Below, one piece after another: positions 23,069-36,793 of a stretch of 47,034 bases of DNA. Source of the DNA: a virus; the IMG/VR virus record IMGVR_UViG_3300009418_000002, positions 1 through 47,034 of that record; one strand, given 5' to 3'. The position numbers and the translations under genes were made by a program. Each line of letters opens with the position of its first letter. Positions within the stretch are counted from its first letter, which is position 1. Below the pieces are notes generated by a model, which was not told where the DNA came from, made no database searches, and saw only the letters and a list, made by a program, of their open reading frames with translations.

Positions 23069-23695
23069 TTAGCCCCGCTTGTTGATCCGTCTTCGATGAT
23101 GAAGTTGAGTTCTTGCTCGTTCGGCTTTGAGAACCGGACTGGCGTTCCAGCACAGACACCGTTCCACATAGTCATGGTCATAGAGATGGCGTTTACTAGT
23201 CTCGCATGAGCCACACAACTCCTTCTCTGTGCAGGAATACGACCGCCAGCCCGTATCACTACAGTGGTGGCAGTAGTAGGTCGCCACATGAATCGGTGCG
23301 GTTTTCCAGTTCTTGGCGTTTGGGAGTGAGTGGCCCGTGATGCGTTTATAGGTATCTAGGAACTCAGTACGCGCCTTCCTGAGCTTCTCTTCCTCATCAC
23401 GTTCAATCTGCGCCGGTGGCAATTGTTTAGTGTTCTCCGTATCTCTCGCCACCCGTTGCATGGCGTCATTGTCAGCGACTTCGTACCAACTCCCATCATC
23501 TGGCATGAACGGATTCGCTTCTTTACACAACGTCTGTGCGGCCACCTCAACACTCTCAATCGGTAAGTCACCAAGCACTAGAAACGACGCTTCCAGTTTC
23601 ACTTCGTCCGTCTTGGTGTTCTTCGAGGCTGCGACAAAGTTAAACACGCGAGTGAATCGTTCTGGCGCATCACGAGTCAATAGGTAGGTTGTCAT
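23069..23695 (-). CDS. hypothetical replication-region protein with zinc motif
   Basis: This 208-residue protein starts at an ATG with AAGGAGGGATAG. The N-terminal part has 'LEASFLVLGDLPIESVEVAAQTLCKEANPFMPDDGSWYEV', the middle is charged and helical, and the C-terminal part has cysteines in pairs: 'YYCHHCSDTGWRSYSC', 'LCGSCETSKR', 'CLCW'. A metal-binding role is likely. Its place downstream of the replication initiator suggests a loader or accessory factor, but I do not recognise the family. Confidence 0.6.
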   Translation of the reverse strand: MTTYLLTRDAPERFTRVFNFVAASKNTKTDEVKLEASFLVLGDLPIESVEVAAQTLCKEANPFMPDDGSWYEVADNDAMQRVARDTENTKQLPPAQIERDEEEKLRKARTEFLDTYKRITGHSLPNAKNWKTAPIHVATYYCHHCSDTGWRSYSCTEKELCGSCETSKRHLYDHDYVERCLCWNASPVLKAERARTQLHHRRRINKRG

Positions 23696-24238
23696 CTATC
23701 CCTCCTTGGTGAGCGCATCAGAGATGGTGCGCCCAAATAATGTTCCCTGAATAACACCAACTTCAACGGGAAGATTCATTGGACAAACGCTTGACAGTCT
23801 CGTTATTTCCCATTTGCGCTTGTCGCACAAGGGATGATTGTCCTGTCGATTACGAGTGTTGTTATTCCATGGCTTGCCTTTGATCGTGCCGACCAGACAC
23901 CAACCAGAGGCATTTAAGGTAATTCCAGGTTCACTGGCAAGTGTGTAAGTAATCAAACGGTGATAGCCCATAGACTTAGCGGCTTTCCATGCGGCTCCAT
24001 ACAGTTTCGATGGCGCATTCTTAGTCCCATCGGTGCAGCATCTCGTAACCTCCAAGGTTAGTCCATCATCAGAGGCACGAGTCACGGGTCGTCCAACCAT
24101 AATCACGCCGACAACCTTAATGCCATCATTAACAGCGATGCCCCACTTCCACCCCTGTGGAGGCACATGGTGTCGATGATGGGTCTGAACAAACCGACAG
24201 GCATCCTTGTAGGTTAGAGGCTGGAGAAAGAGAGTCAC
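23696..24238 (-). CDS. XF1762/Mom-like GNAT-fold protein
   Basis: This 180-residue protein starts with GTG, with GGAGGG just upstream. The motif run 'YKDACRFVQTHHRHHVPPQGWKWGIAV', 'VVGVIMVGRPVTRASDDGLTLEVTRCCTDGTKNAPSKLYGAAWKAAKSMGYHRLITYTLASEPGITLNASGW' is the XF1762-type phage family, which resembles the Mu Mom DNA-modification protein. Mom changes adenine in DNA; whether XF1762 proteins do so is unsettled. The gene lies between the initiator and nuclease genes. Confidence 0.85.
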   Translation of the reverse strand: MTLFLQPLTYKDACRFVQTHHRHHVPPQGWKWGIAVNDGIKVVGVIMVGRPVTRASDDGLTLEVTRCCTDGTKNAPSKLYGAAWKAAKSMGYHRLITYTLASEPGITLNASGWCLVGTIKGKPWNNNTRNRQDNHPLCDKRKWEITRLSSVCPMNLPVEVGVIQGTLFGRTISDALTKEG

Positions 24239-25011
24239 TATCCCTCCTTTCGATGTCGTTCAAGAAAGCGTTTACTGGCATCAATCATGGTGAGTGTGTT
24301 CGTGGTCAGTTTCGGTTTCTGATTAACCTGTGGTTCATCTTCCCATCGGCGTTCCTTGAGAAACCGCACCGCGTGGCAAATGTAGCGTTCGTCAATATCT
24401 TCATCCTCCCATGCTTTGAGATACAGCGTCAGTCCGTCCATCACCTCCTGATAGAGTGGTGTGTCGTGTTCAATTTTCAACTTCTTCCAAATTTCCGATG
24501 CGGCTTTCTTTCCTCGATTTCGTGGATACCTCGACCAGAATGATTCAAATCGAGCCGTATAGTTATTAGTACTATTATTAGTACTATTATTAGTACAGTC
24601 TCCACTTAACACCAGCGTATCAGTCGTCTGTAACTGCACGTCCTTGTGTGGTTTATCAGCGTCAGCTAGTAACACCGATGTTACAGGGGTAGCCACATGG
24701 GTATTACTACCCTTCGGTGAAATCAGTTTCAGTTGATACAAGTTCTCCACGTATTGCTGCGGCTTGATGGTCTGGTGTTGCACAGCCAACGCGCCGATGC
24801 CGAGCAGTTCCTTCACCCACCGATCAACGGTCGGCATCGAACACTTGAGAACCGTGGCAAGTTCTGACCGTGATGGATTCGCTAGACCATCACGGTCACA
24901 CCACCTTGCCGACAGATACGCATACAGCCGAATGGCTCCATGCTGAATAGACGATTCAAGAATCCAGAGCGGGACATGGGCGAGTGGTCCCGTGTCACTT
25001 TTGAGTGCCAT
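24238..25011 (-). CDS. replication initiator-like protein (winged HTH plus DnaD-like tail)
   Basis: This 257-residue protein has the N-terminal 'HVPLWILESSIQHGAIRLYAYLSARWCDRDGLANPSRSELATVLKCSMPTVDRWVKELLGIGAL', a winged helix-turn-helix of the replication-initiator type (recognition helix SMPTVDRWVKEL). The C-terminal 'FESFWSRYPRNRGKKAASEIWKKLK' resembles DnaD/phage replisome-organiser tails. Between them is an Asn/Ser/Thr linker encoded by 12-base repeats. It likely opens the phage origin and recruits host helicase. The start is an ATG with GGAGAAAA. Confidence 0.8.
   Translation of the reverse strand: MALKSDTGPLAHVPLWILESSIQHGAIRLYAYLSARWCDRDGLANPSRSELATVLKCSMPTVDRWVKELLGIGALAVQHQTIKPQQYVENLYQLKLISPKGSNTHVATPVTSVLLADADKPHKDVQLQTTDTLVLSGDCTNNSTNNSTNNYTARFESFWSRYPRNRGKKAASEIWKKLKIEHDTPLYQEVMDGLTLYLKAWEDEDIDERYICHAVRFLKERRWEDEPQVNQKPKLTTNTLTMIDASKRFLERHRKEG
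24563..24598. repeat. three tandem 12-bp AT-rich repeats (iteron-like)
   Basis: The unit TTATTAGTACTA occurs at 24563-24574 and 24575-24586 exactly, and again at 24587-24598 with two final changes. Each unit carries the palindrome AGTACT or part of it. It encodes the NNSTNNSTNN linker of the initiator. Small AT-rich iterons inside an initiator gene recall the lambda O gene origin. Origin function is inference. Confidence 0.6.
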
Positions 25012-25140: not shown

Positions 25141-25189
25141 CCGCTCTACCTGAGCGGTCTCCCGTCAGGGAGTGATTTAATTTTCAAAG
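25141..25189 (-). promoter_or_regulatory. boxA-like 15-mer followed by two hairpins, before the initiator operon
   Basis: On the minus strand the sequence CTTTGAAAATTAAAT (25189-25175) is followed by hairpin CTCCC-TGAC-GGGAG (25172-25159) and hairpin CCGCTC-AGGTA-GAGCGG (25157-25141), two bases before the ATG of 24995-25138. The same 15-mer, also followed by a hairpin, is at 36066-36052. The layout resembles antitermination (nut) sites, with a boxA-like core and a boxB-like hairpin. The second hairpin holds the AGG ribosome site in its loop, so it could also control translation. Both roles are inferred. Confidence 0.5.
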
Positions 25190-27533: not shown

Positions 27534-27604
27534 AGCTGTTCCTCATTGGAGATAGAAGTGTGCTACGATGGGAATACCATTTTCTTTCCCTTCACACTGA
27601 ACGG

Positions 27605-27626
27605 CGCGAAGTCTCCATGCTTCGCG
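27605..27626 (+). terminator. hairpin with plus-strand T-rich tail, terminator-like
   Basis: CGCGAAG (27605-27611) and CTTCGCG (27620-27626) form a 7-bp stem with an 8-base loop; TCGTTTCTTTTT follows on the plus strand. No plus-strand gene lies upstream, so it may stop antisense transcription. On the minus strand the hairpin has no U tail and could only pause polymerase or protect RNA ends between 27637-27828 and 26727-27533. Confidence 0.45.
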
Positions 27627-27636
27627 TCGTTTCTTT

Positions 27637-28157: not shown

Positions 28158-29048
28158 CTAGTCGTCGAAGATGATTTGACGCACTGGACATTCCTCAACC
28201 ATTGATTCGATGTTCGCAACGGTCGAAGCTATCTGCTCGTTGATGGATGCCTTGAACGATTCACTGTCCCGCATGTCTTTCACACTGACGCCACTGAGTA
28301 GCTTCCGCATATTCGCAACCGCCTCATGCATGTCCTGGTCATTAGCGAGATTACGAGCCTCGAAAGTTTCCATGAAGTCCGTGAGCTTATTCAGAATGGA
28401 AGCATGAATCGGGCGTTTGCGAGTACTGCCGTTCGACCCCGTGGGCTGGAGTTGGGATTTGAACTGCGTCACAAACTCTAGGCACGTTCGACGCATGATA
28501 GCCTTCGTGTACTCAGTCGCCTTTTCAAACTCCTTTTGGAGCTTGTCACGTTCACGCTGAAAGACTGCGCTACTGATGTCGGCCAGTTCGCCAGGGACGT
28601 TCGTTGAGATATATGACCACTCAATCCCGAATGCCGTAGCGACTTCAGCTACCGTGGGATAGTCATTATCTCGATATAGATCACCAAGCTGTTCACGGGC
28701 AGTCACTTCAACAAGCGTTGGCCACTCACCGCAGAGTGTGGCGACTTCACCCTTCATCTGTGACACGTAGTCACCCAACTGGTCTTCAACTTCTGAAACA
28801 AATTCATTTGGAAGTGCATACACCGCACCACGCAGTCCAGTTTCGACAGCCCGAGAGAGTAGATACGACCGTGCTTGATTCTGAATTCGCTGGATGCGTT
28901 TGTAGGTGTTTGACTGGAATAACTTCTTGTTGACGCTGACGAGAGTCTTGTCAGCCGTCGTCTCCACGCGACCCTTGTCAATCTTTCTGGTCACGCCGAG
29001 ACAACGAAAATGTAACGAGATGAATACCGCATTCTTGAGAGTAGCCAT
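28158..29048 (-). CDS. DUF3150-like protein linked to AAA ATPase operon
   Basis: This protein has 296 residues from the ATG at 29048 with AAGGAGAAC. The start 'KNAVFISLHFRCLGVTRKIDKGRV' and following helices ('LFQSNTYKRIQRIQNQARSYLLSRAVETGLRGAVYALPNEFVSEVEDQL') resemble DUF3150 proteins, which accompany AAA ATPase genes. The rest is helical and charged. Its ribosome-binding block (AAGGAGAACAGAATGGCTAC) is shared with the AAA ATPase gene at 32141. The 104-base leader contains two inverted repeats. Function is unknown. Confidence 0.55.
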   Translation of the reverse strand: MATLKNAVFISLHFRCLGVTRKIDKGRVETTADKTLVSVNKKLFQSNTYKRIQRIQNQARSYLLSRAVETGLRGAVYALPNEFVSEVEDQLGDYVSQMKGEVATLCGEWPTLVEVTAREQLGDLYRDNDYPTVAEVATAFGIEWSYISTNVPGELADISSAVFQRERDKLQKEFEKATEYTKAIMRRTCLEFVTQFKSQLQPTGSNGSTRKRPIHASILNKLTDFMETFEARNLANDQDMHEAVANMRKLLSGVSVKDMRDSESFKASINEQIASTVANIESMVEECPVRQIIFDD

Positions 29049-29064
29049 TCTGTTCTCCTTGAAA

Positions 29065-30581: not shown

Positions 30582-32141
30582 CTAGTTGAGCTTGTGAGCG
30601 TCGCCAGCATCGAACGAGGACACATCAATCTGCCGTGTCTGTTCAGTCGGCGTGTTGGTCGGGCGATGATACGGCCCAGACTCGCTGGCTGAAATCCACA
30701 CGCCGTCCGCTTGCGACCGTAACGCCTCGATACTCCGTGCTGAGGCTTGTCCCTCTGGCACGATGTACGTGGCTGCTTCCTTCATTGTCAGATCAAGCGT
30801 TTGCGATGTCTCAACGCAGACTTGAATATTGGCAGGACTCCATCCATCGTCAGGAACCATCAGGTCTTCAAGAGAGTCTTCATCGTTACGCCAATGGCAA
30901 TAATTCTTCCAGATGGCTTTGCGGTCTTGAGCGTTCGGCAGGTCGAAGAAGAACTTGCCACTCTTGAATCTCCGCATCAGTGCCGGACTCAGACCAGCCG
31001 TGCTGTTGCAGGTTGCCAAGAACAAGACCTTGCCACGACTAACGGCATGGATGATGTTCATCGCCTGACGTAGCCGACTCTGAGACTCACCAACCAGTGA
31101 GTTCATCAAGCCACCGAAGTCCAACTGACACGTCAGCGTTCCGGTCGATTGCGACATCATCGACTTGCCAGTTCCCGGCAGTCCCATGAAGACCATCCCG
31201 TCGTACTGACGTTCCTGCATCTCTTGAAGAAGCACGTTGACCTGATCCATCACGATGCCGTTGCTTTCACCTTCGGCTCCGTGCAACTGCTTCTCGATCT
31301 CATCAATCCATACGACAAGATTGATGTCCTTCTTTTCAAGAAACGATTTGAGATAGGTCTTGCAGTTGTCGTACCCAATCACATCATCGAGTGTCGTGGT
31401 CGGCATCCAGATTGTGAGTCCCGGCGTATCGTCAATCATCGCCTTCTTGCGATCCCACAATCCGTCAATGTCCAGACCGTCTTTCGTCAGCGACATCGCG
31501 GTGACTTGCTCAGAGGTAAATCTCGACAGGCCAAACAAGGCTTCAACGGCATCCTCGATGAGTGCCGCCCCTGGTGACTGTTGATCGTGACCAGCTTCAT
31601 ACACCGACGTGACCACCGCCTTGAGTGCCTCACCATCAGGCAGCGGTTCGTCATACGTCATCACGTCATGAGAGAGTTCACGAGGCATCGTCATTCCCGG
31701 CGACAACAACACCAGCATCCGTTGATTGACCTTGAACTGATCGCGCAGATTGTAGATACCCTGAACAATGTCGATGGCTGGCTTGCCGTCTGGTGCAATC
31801 AAGAGATGGGCGTTATGGAGAAACACGATGCTCCCCTGCTCAACCTGAGTCAACCGGTTCAACACTTCGACCGGATTGAGCAAGCTGTCAGGATTGTTAT
31901 CAGATAGCGCAGTAATCGCGGCGGTGGCTTGCTTGACATGAGTGGTTCCCGATGAGGCTGGTGTCATGCCTCGCACCGCGTCCCATTGCAACGAGACACC
32001 GTGCTTGCCGTTCTTGGCTTGCACCGCTTCGATTTCCTTGACCACTGATACAACCGTGGAAGCGGCATCAGGTGTGCCAATCGAAATCAGCGGCGTGCTG
32101 ACCAGGTACGCACGTCGGACGTCTTCCAGTAATGTAGCCAT
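30582..32141 (-). CDS. Ycf46-like AAA ATPase with permuted Walker B/Walker A order
   Basis: This 519-residue protein has N-terminal residues 1-240 that match the Ycf46 N-domain ('LISIGTPDAAS', 'LQWDAVRGM', 'GSIVFLHNAHLLI', 'RMLVLLSPGMTMPRELSHDV'). The AAA core has 'DDVIGYDNCKTYLKSFL' (253-268), Walker B-like VVWIDEIEK (276-284), a helix, then Walker A FMGLPGTGKSMM (318-329), 'SLVGESQSRLRQAMNIIHAVSRGK', sensor-like VLFLATCNS (372-380) and Arg finger ALMRRF (387-392). Normally Walker B comes after SLVGES and before the sensor. Here it precedes Walker A. The start is an ATG with AAGGAGAAC. Confidence 0.88.
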   Translation of the reverse strand: MATLLEDVRRAYLVSTPLISIGTPDAASTVVSVVKEIEAVQAKNGKHGVSLQWDAVRGMTPASSGTTHVKQATAAITALSDNNPDSLLNPVEVLNRLTQVEQGSIVFLHNAHLLIAPDGKPAIDIVQGIYNLRDQFKVNQRMLVLLSPGMTMPRELSHDVMTYDEPLPDGEALKAVVTSVYEAGHDQQSPGAALIEDAVEALFGLSRFTSEQVTAMSLTKDGLDIDGLWDRKKAMIDDTPGLTIWMPTTTLDDVIGYDNCKTYLKSFLEKKDINLVVWIDEIEKQLHGAEGESNGIVMDQVNVLLQEMQERQYDGMVFMGLPGTGKSMMSQSTGTLTCQLDFGGLMNSLVGESQSRLRQAMNIIHAVSRGKVLFLATCNSTAGLSPALMRRFKSGKFFFDLPNAQDRKAIWKNYCHWRNDEDSLEDLMVPDDGWSPANIQVCVETSQTLDLTMKEAATYIVPEGQASARSIEALRSQADGVWISASESGPYHRPTNTPTEQTRQIDVSSFDAGDAHKLN

Positions 32142-32162
32142 TCTGTTCTCCTTGGTCGCGGC

Positions 32163-34574: not shown

Positions 34575-34586
34575 AACATTCTCCTT

Positions 34587-35248: not shown

Positions 35249-35422
35249 TTATATAGTGTCCTTCGCCTTCCTGAGCTTCTCTTCCCGAAACTGATCTGCA
35301 CGTTTACTGAACGCCTCAAAAGATTCGCCATCGCGTGGTTTCGGAGTCATTGGACAATCATGAACATTCCAATCATCGCGGGACATCACTTTGCGGCATT
35401 GTTTGCACCTTACTGAATACAT
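35249..35422 (-). CDS. small zinc-finger-like protein, first gene after the structured leader
   Basis: This 57-residue protein begins MYSVRCKQCRKVMSRDDWNV, then HDCPMTPKPR, then a helical part ending RKAKDTI. CxxC at 6-9 and HxC at 21-23 suggest a zinc finger. The start is an ATG with AAGGAGAGTG, 17 bases after the closing helix of the noncoding stretch. It is the first gene of the early operon. The frame overlaps no other good frame. Confidence 0.7.
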   Translation of the reverse strand: MYSVRCKQCRKVMSRDDWNVHDCPMTPKPRDGESFEAFSKRADQFREEKLRKAKDTI

Positions 35423-35452
35423 AATGACACTCTCCTTGAGTAAGTAAAGTTT

Positions 35453-35483
35453 GATGTGTTGTTCTTTCAGGATGTTCGTATGT
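35453..35483. repeat. 31-bp imperfect inverted repeat, left arm
   Basis: Pairs with 35581-35611; 27 of 31 positions match. As minus-strand RNA the four differences become three G-U pairs and one C-A mismatch. As plus-strand RNA they become one G-U pair and three mismatches. The loop is 97 bases. Confidence 0.9.
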
Positions 35484-35580
35484 CGTATGCCAAGAGGGTC
35501 GCACCTGAGATATTTATTAGGGCCTCGGCACGATACATAGTGATCGTCCTAGCCTCACACACGTTACCTTTGACTGCTTA

Positions 35581-35611
35581 ACACACGAACACCCTAAGAG
35601 AACAACACATC
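35581..35611. repeat. 31-bp imperfect inverted repeat, right arm
   Basis: Pairs with 35453-35483 (see that entry). On the minus strand it begins GATGTGTTGTTCT, shared exactly with the plus strand of the left arm. The same TGTTCT core is also part of the boxA-like site at 36070-36063. Confidence 0.9.
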
Positions 35612-36051
35612 CAATGAAGACTCACCAGTACCGGAACTCTGCATCCGGCACCGGTGAGGTGACGCTAGCCTCAACTGAATCGGCGATACGTGGTGTCAAC
35701 GTCCACGACATCGTAATCTTCAAATATGGTGGATGCGAGGCTTCTCAGCAAGTTTGCCACACTTGCCTCGGTGACACTCGCGACCGCAAAGTTTCAAGAT
35801 ATTCGTTTCGCTCTCTGGCGGCGACTGGCGTGCGTCTCATCTCAGCGAGAATGAACCTTTCGGCGACGTGATCACGCTCTTGGGTGTTTTAGTTGCTTGA
35901 ACATCTCACGAACTTTGTACTGATCACTTCTAAGAGCTTGCTACTCTTCGCAACCCCTAGCGCGTCCTCTGTGGCTGTCTTGGCGTCGTGGCTATTAAGC
36001 TCGGCTCGGCTCCTGGCGTTGTGCGCTACGGACGTTTGTAGCTGACCAGCT

Positions 36052-36066
36052 ATTTAATTTTCAAAG
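36052..36066 (-). promoter_or_regulatory. boxA-like 15-mer with following hairpin, near main promoter
   Basis: The minus strand reads TGTTCTTTGAAAATTAAAT; the last 15 bases also occur at 25189-25175. TAGCT-GGTC-AGCTA follows as a small hairpin (36052-36039). TGTTCTTT is close to the boxA core of rRNA and phage nut sites. It lies about 15-30 bases after the predicted start site. It may load Nus factors so that polymerase can cross the whole genome. This is inference. Confidence 0.5.
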
Positions 36067-36090
36067 AACACATTACTTACTTACATATAG

Positions 36091-36119
36091 ATAATACACT
36101 AATTATACATATTACACAA
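36091..36119 (-). promoter_or_regulatory. sigma70-type promoter for the leftward operon and noncoding RNA
   Basis: On the minus strand the -35 is TTGTGT (36119-36114), the spacer is exactly 17 bases, and the -10 is TATTAT (36096-36091). The expected start is near 36084, which is just where the 5' strand of the closing helix begins. The surrounding bases are AT-rich. This is the best promoter in the window by eye. Confidence 0.6.
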
Positions 36120-36223: not shown

Positions 36224-36520
36224 ATGTCGATGGGAATCAAGTCAAAATTCGCACGATGGGCTATCGGTCAAGGCGTGTCTGACTACCTCAAAAAGATGGG
36301 CGTCGATAAGCCGCATCGACAGCGAGTTGTGAAGGCGGTGCAAGATATGTTGAACCCGAAGAAAGAACCTGTGATGCTTGGCGGTGTGGTATCAGTCGCC
36401 GTCGCACTCGGCGCGGCGTTCGGACTTGACTTAACGGTCGAACAACTATCCGTCACAGTGGCAACGGTCATTGCCATCGTGACGTTCGTCCAACGGAAAT
36501 TCGTCTCCCCTAAACACTAG
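36224..36520 (+). CDS. holin-like membrane protein
   Basis: This 98-residue protein has a basic N-terminal part ('MSMGIKSKFARWAIGQGVSDYLKKMGVDKPHRQRVVKAV'), then one or two hydrophobic helices 'VMLGGVVSVAVALGAAFGLDLTVEQLSVTVATVIAIVTFVQRKFV'. The two membrane parts with a short polar turn fit small holins. It lies beside the lysozyme gene but on the opposite strand. No good Shine-Dalgarno sequence is seen; the Met at codon 3 is a possible start. Holin assignment is by context. Confidence 0.6.
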   Translation: MSMGIKSKFARWAIGQGVSDYLKKMGVDKPHRQRVVKAVQDMLNPKKEPVMLGGVVSVAVALGAAFGLDLTVEQLSVTVATVIAIVTFVQRKFVSPKH

Positions 36521-36529
36521 GAGGTCATC

Positions 36530-36793
36530 ATGGGATGGGTCACGATTGGCCTGAAGATCTTGCCGTTCATCGTAGAAGCGGTCAACTGGGTCGAGAAGTT
36601 TGTGACAAGAAAGGGTCAAGAAAAGCAAGACGCCGCTATCAAGATGTGTGTGTCGATGCTTGGGATTGCAGAGGCCGCACTCGAAAGAGACATCCTCGAA
36701 GATTCTGAAGTCGAAGAGGCGGCACGCAAGACAATTGATGCCGTGGTCGCGCTTCAGAACATCATCGCCAAGAAGCAAGCCGATTCGTCTTAA
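36530..36793 (+). CDS. small helical protein paired with the holin-like gene
   Basis: This 87-residue protein has a strong AGGAGG. The N-terminal 'WVTIGLKILPFIVEAVNWVEKFV' is amphipathic or weakly membrane-bound, and the rest is helical and charged ('KQDAAIKMCVSMLGIAEAALERDILEDSEVEEAARKTIDAVVAL'). It resembles small phage proteins found beside holins in lysis cassettes. Its stop overlaps the stop of the convergent lysozyme gene. Confidence 0.6.
   Translation: MGWVTIGLKILPFIVEAVNWVEKFVTRKGQEKQDAAIKMCVSMLGIAEAALERDILEDSEVEEAARKTIDAVVALQNIIAKKQADSS

Follow-up and report, generated by a model that had tools for sequence, protein, structure and literature searches.

A ribosomal-type boxA ahead of a conserved non-coding leader suggests host-assisted antitermination in a phage genome

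Does a 15-nt word that occurs twice on one strand of a phage genome, each time close to a hairpin, mark a pair of λ-type nut sites, or does one of its copies belong to another kind of signal? The window in which this question arises, by which we mean the whole 47,034-nt stretch of DNA analysed here, is IMG/VR virus record IMGVR_UViG_3300009418_000002. Because it has a direct terminal repeat of about 123 bp (at 1 and 46912), it is probably the complete circular map of a tailed phage; recognised phage genes encode terminase, portal, capsid, tape measure, endolysin and a replication initiation protein (24238-25011). The earlier note on this DNA had likened the repeated word to boxA and the hairpins to boxB, in a genome whose genes all run in one direction. 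Gene direction is in fact not uniform, since two genes with homologues (36224-36520 and 36530-36793), just upstream of the leader promoter described below, are on the plus strand. Their homologues in L006 are co-directional with the structural genes, so the 36224-36793 block appears inverted in the window.

The word itself, CTTTGAAAATTAAAT, is present exactly as claimed, on the minus strand at 25189-25175 and 36066-36052, and at no other site in the window with up to two mismatches. Its repetition is by itself no evidence, since dinucleotide shuffles of the window contained on average 1.57 directly repeated 15-mers, with at least one in 72% of them, so that an isolated pair is expected; we therefore discarded the pair as an argument. 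Several other exact repeats of 15-22 nt are found in the window. Those of 21-22 nt are located at 29041-29061 and 32134-32154, spanning the ribosome site and start codon of two genes, at 23372 and 35264, and at 34585 and 35217.

Hairpins follow both copies on the same strand, as the earlier note had said: CTCCC-TGAC-GGGAG and CCGCTC-AGGTA-GAGCGG at 25172-25141 after the 25-kb copy, and TAGCT-GGTC-AGCTA at about 36053-36040 after the 36-kb copy. A perfect 5-bp hairpin lies equally near to about 6.6% of minus-strand positions. Between the copies the stems differ, and so do the loops (TGAC, AGGTA, GGTC), from which it follows that they have no boxB in common, in contrast to the conserved boxB hairpin that follows boxA at each site of a λ-type nut pair.

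Two nut-like sites at 36 and 25 kb, served by an unrecognised phage antiterminator as in λ, would nevertheless account for an identical word on the coding strand with a hairpin at each copy, one copy lying after a promoter and the other before the replication gene. Apart from the unlike hairpins and the chance expectation for 15-mer pairs, the 25-kb copy (25175-25189, minus strand) itself argues against such a pair. It reads CCACTTTGAAAA, with three mismatches to TGTTCTTTGAAAATT, lacks the GTT of the boxA core (CCACTTTG, in the longer context CCACTTTGAAAATTAAATC), and its tail diverges after AAAT; CCACTTTGAAAATT thus departs from the GYTCTTT core and A-rich tail of a boxA. The segment of about 225 nt between a 55-aa gene and the replication gene, including the two short hairpins at 25141-25172 (minus strand), is absent from two relatives of about 82% DNA identity (L008 and L009, the latter the same contig as L003), and searches found no homologues of it. 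Among the larger window proteins scanned, no N-like gene was recognised, N proteins being small and diverse. Since, in addition, the motif is degenerate at 36 kb in a further relative (L205, see below), we regard the nut pair as very unlikely.

The 25-kb copy also overlaps the stop of a 25-codon ORF (25261-25184, minus strand), CTT TGA being its last codon and stop. This ORF is in frame with one of 47 codons beyond the TGA, and read-through (25261-24995, minus strand) would yield a Cys-rich protein (CFRC ... WCKGGC), possibly the product of a broken zinc-ribbon gene; no homologue of the joined ORFs was found in phages. Most likely the 25-kb copy is a coincidence with no role in antitermination. 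We leave roughly one chance in five for a weak, phage-specific second site, because the particular word CTTTGAAAATTAAAT is rare (expected count 5e-5) and a chance 15-mer repeat landing exactly on a boxA is therefore improbable.

The 36-kb copy has the GYTCTTT core and the A-rich tail (GTTCTTTGAAAATT). It extends to the 19-mer GTTCTTTGAAAATTAAATA (longer context TGTGTTCTTTGAAAATTAAATAGC), which is exactly the rRNA boxA word, and the full element GTTCTTTGAAAATTAAATAGC (36049-36069, minus strand) matches in several cases over all 21 positions. The 12-nt rRNA boxA GTTCTTTGAAAA is expected only 0.008 times anywhere in the window. About 20 nt upstream of the element, a likely promoter (36091-36119, minus strand) can be read from the sequence, with a −35 box TTGTGT (36119-36114), a 17-nt spacer and a −10 box TATTAT (36096-36091), or alternatively TATAAT (36107-36102). 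It is called likely only, because it falls below the threshold of the consensus scan. Transcription would be expected to start near 36084, which would place boxA about 15-35 nt past the start. Just after boxA follows a hairpin, GCTAC-AAACGTCC-GTAGC (36025-36042, minus strand).

To what extent this word is a ribosomal signal can be judged from its occurrence in bacteria. Searching 84,980 species genomes for GTTCTTTGAAAATTAAATA returned 111 stretches. In 16 of them a 16S, 23S or tmRNA gene starts no more than 400 nt downstream on the strand of the word, and in none does one do so in the opposite orientation; L075, L088 and L093 are cases before tmRNA. One further match lies 118 nt before the first repeat of a CRISPR array (L050) and two precede pemK RNAs (L027, L053), as annotated with Rfam. 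Each of five genomes of 2.2-3.9 Mb has a single copy of the 17-mer, which precedes 16S in four of them and a CRISPR array in the fifth; in these genomes, then, it is no frequent AT-rich word. Within the phylum to which one of the five belongs, 57 genomes yielded 8 matches, 7 of them 73-86 nt before 16S, and none to the reversed word. Its location before 16S, 23S and tmRNA genes identifies the 36-kb element as an rRNA-type boxA, by comparison across many phyla with a word that may differ from the boxA of the phage's own host.

These results also bear on the possibility that the 36-kb word matches boxA by chance, being AT-rich, and that the RNA behind it serves translation control or is a stable RNA, antitermination playing no part. 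The AT-rich surroundings and the degenerate word in L205 would be compatible with this, but the placement of the word would be improbable, and in the five genomes of 2-4 Mb it is found once per genome and before 16S or a CRISPR array; we consider a chance match fairly unlikely.

The 19-mer also occurs in other settings. Most matches in IMG/VR belong to one Lactobacillus-type prophage locus, where it runs antisense to the start of a coding sequence and was therefore rejected as a boxA. In one Spiroplasma chromosome (NZ_CP065193.1), about 20 copies in similar context (L026, L039, L043, L044, L047 and others) apparently belong to a repeated element. In MAGs of Clostridia and Bacilli (L028, L058, L071, L101), the 19-mer opens a conserved non-coding leader of about 250-300 nt (GAGTTGGAAATCGCCGATATCTGCCGACTCG...) before a small gene (MNAKETLNLISKQWCDLNDL...); searches with the leaders of L028 and L058 gave no Rfam matches. 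Finally, a 76-kb virus contig (L187, 1558-1576) has ATGTAAGTAAATTGTGTTCTTTGAAAATTAAATA after an AT-rich promoter-like block and 22 nt before an ORF, an arrangement that resembles the promoter and boxA of the window.

The unexpected part of the locus is what lies behind its boxA: a conserved, undescribed leader RNA. From the likely promoter to the first early gene, about 640-660 nt (35423-36084, minus strand) are non-coding, with no minus-strand ORF of at least 50 aa. The leader folds better than shuffled sequences (z −4.5, and −3.5 for its homologue in L205). Within it we distinguish module I (35728-35966, minus strand) and module II (35454-35612, minus strand), the latter an interrupted stem of about 28-31 pairs around about 95 nt. 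A point against a working boxA is that the predicted fold has it paired with 35971-35962, although boxA acts on the nascent RNA. Two candidate helices were rejected: one closing the whole leader (GTAAGTAAGTAA with TTACTTACT), which is absent in L205, and one at 35927-35921/35874-35868, which is broken by sequence changes there. The first gene after the leader (35249-35422, minus strand) has the ribosome site AAGGAGAG and encodes a Cys/His-rich protein of 57 aa.

No Rfam family matched the leader even at a permissive threshold, and searches of 50,697 phage records and 72,556 plasmid records yielded no homologue. A covariance model of module II, run against 18 related or boxA-bearing virus records, matched only the contig of L205, and a DNA word from this module retrieved only a near-identical contig and that of L205 from IMG/VR. 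Two relatives that share the upstream genes (L006, L007) do not share the leader. A search for relatives with PAPS reductase as query found none.

The sole informative relative covering the leader is L205 (contig IMGVR_UViG_3300008216_001107; in full, L207), and conservation and pairing are judged from two distinct sequences, near-identical contigs (L004, L005) carrying no information on conservation. L205 retains part of the AT-rich promoter block (AATATGTATATTAATGTTATTATACATATGTAA), a 33-nt block after boxA (94% identity) that includes the stem of the hairpin (GCTACGAACGTCCGTAGC), module I (86%) and module II (94%). It differs from the window in the interval that separates promoter from boxA, in the sequence joining the modules and in the first gene. 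Module II exceeds every aligned gene block, these ranging from 68 to 88% identity; in the neighbouring plus-strand gene, 18% of third codon positions differ, compared to about 6% of positions in module II. Of the 52 consensus pairs of this module in the two sequences, none is broken and four carry a one-sided change that preserves pairing, which lends modest support to a functional RNA. We conclude that the leader probably is a functional RNA, whose modules may form a free-standing molecule.

BoxA itself fares differently. The earlier note had named absence of the motif from close relatives as a refutation of its reading. This absence holds for the 25-kb copy and in part for the 36-kb copy, where L205 has the degenerate ATTCTTTTCATA, with 4 mismatches in 12, the TTCTTT core being kept and the rest lost. 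This site is the main evidence against strong selection on boxA. It would also fit a leader RNA that itself modifies the polymerase in the manner of the put RNA of HK022, which acts without a boxA, the boxA word then being incidental: a structured and conserved leader stands at the very start of the transcript, and boxA is not conserved in L205 while the flanking leader sequence is. Against this, an exact 19-mer rRNA boxA directly after the likely promoter is improbable by chance, given the expectation for its 12-mer, and the leader is far longer than put. A put-like leader thus seems unlikely.

That boxA stands between a likely promoter and a long leader that is not translated supports a reading as rRNA-type antitermination. 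We therefore favour, with a probability of a little under 0.6, that a single rRNA-type boxA recruits host Nus factors so that the untranslated phage leader is made in full length, and not a λ-like nut pair. From the earlier nut-site proposal this retains the boxA at 36 kb, as one of rRNA type, and drops the 25-kb site, the shared boxB and the λ-like pairing. In the scheme we infer, boxA would emerge at about +15 to +35 in the leftward transcript and be bound in the nascent RNA by host NusB-NusE, together with NusA, NusG and perhaps further factors; in rrn operons, boxA is both required and enough for the antitermination complex to form (PMC10250234). RNA polymerase would thereby become Rho-resistant while crossing about 640 nt of untranslated leader; in the absence of boxA, Rho would often halt transcription ahead of the first gene. 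Rho is the likelier obstacle because strong intrinsic terminators are few on the minus strand, besides one at 14 kb and one in the leader. The latter is a terminator-like GC-rich hairpin of 15 pairs with a weak T tract (35621-35658, minus strand), located where L205 has other leader sequence. The conserved structured leader might be cut at the long stem of module II, where RNase III could plausibly act. On the plus strand, opposite to the genes there, a strong terminator-like hairpin of 14 pairs followed by CTTTTT is found at 27599-27632.

If this is right, the phage exploits the elongation machinery of host rRNA synthesis through a ribosomal boxA, without a recognised N- or Q-like protein. 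The conservation of module II beyond that of any aligned gene block would point to an undescribed structured RNA, and the boxA word could be used as a query for further RNAs of this kind, be it in phages or in other mobile elements. Only as a tentative possibility, we suggest that the leader might represent a previously unseen class of phage RNA, large, modular and structured, which the first phage transcript would yield in bulk via the host's rRNA antitermination signal; inter-module segments would be exchanged among phages, and the RNA would act in trans and be more than a leader.

Among the closest known systems is the boxA of rRNA operons (rrn antitermination with NusA, NusB, NusE, NusG and SuhB), where the same word of 19-21 nt follows soon after the promoter and precedes a long untranslated structured RNA; here, however, the word belongs to a phage, the RNA behind it is something other than rRNA and runs straight into an early operon, and strict conservation is lacking in the one informative relative. 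The boxA of CRISPR leaders and tmRNA likewise stands before a non-coding transcript other than rRNA, although the downstream RNA is unrelated to that of the phage. With λ nut (boxA, boxB and N protein), the locus shares a boxA on an early phage transcript, but it has no shared boxB, no recognised N-like gene and no supported second site. HK022 put (PMC9378689), like the leader, is a structured RNA with which an early phage transcript begins, but the leader is much longer and has no family match. In size and nature, the leader resembles GOLLD and ROOL, large ornate RNAs of about 600-800 nt that are structured and phage-encoded (PMC12286853), but it matches the Rfam covariance model of neither and no tRNAs were seen near it.
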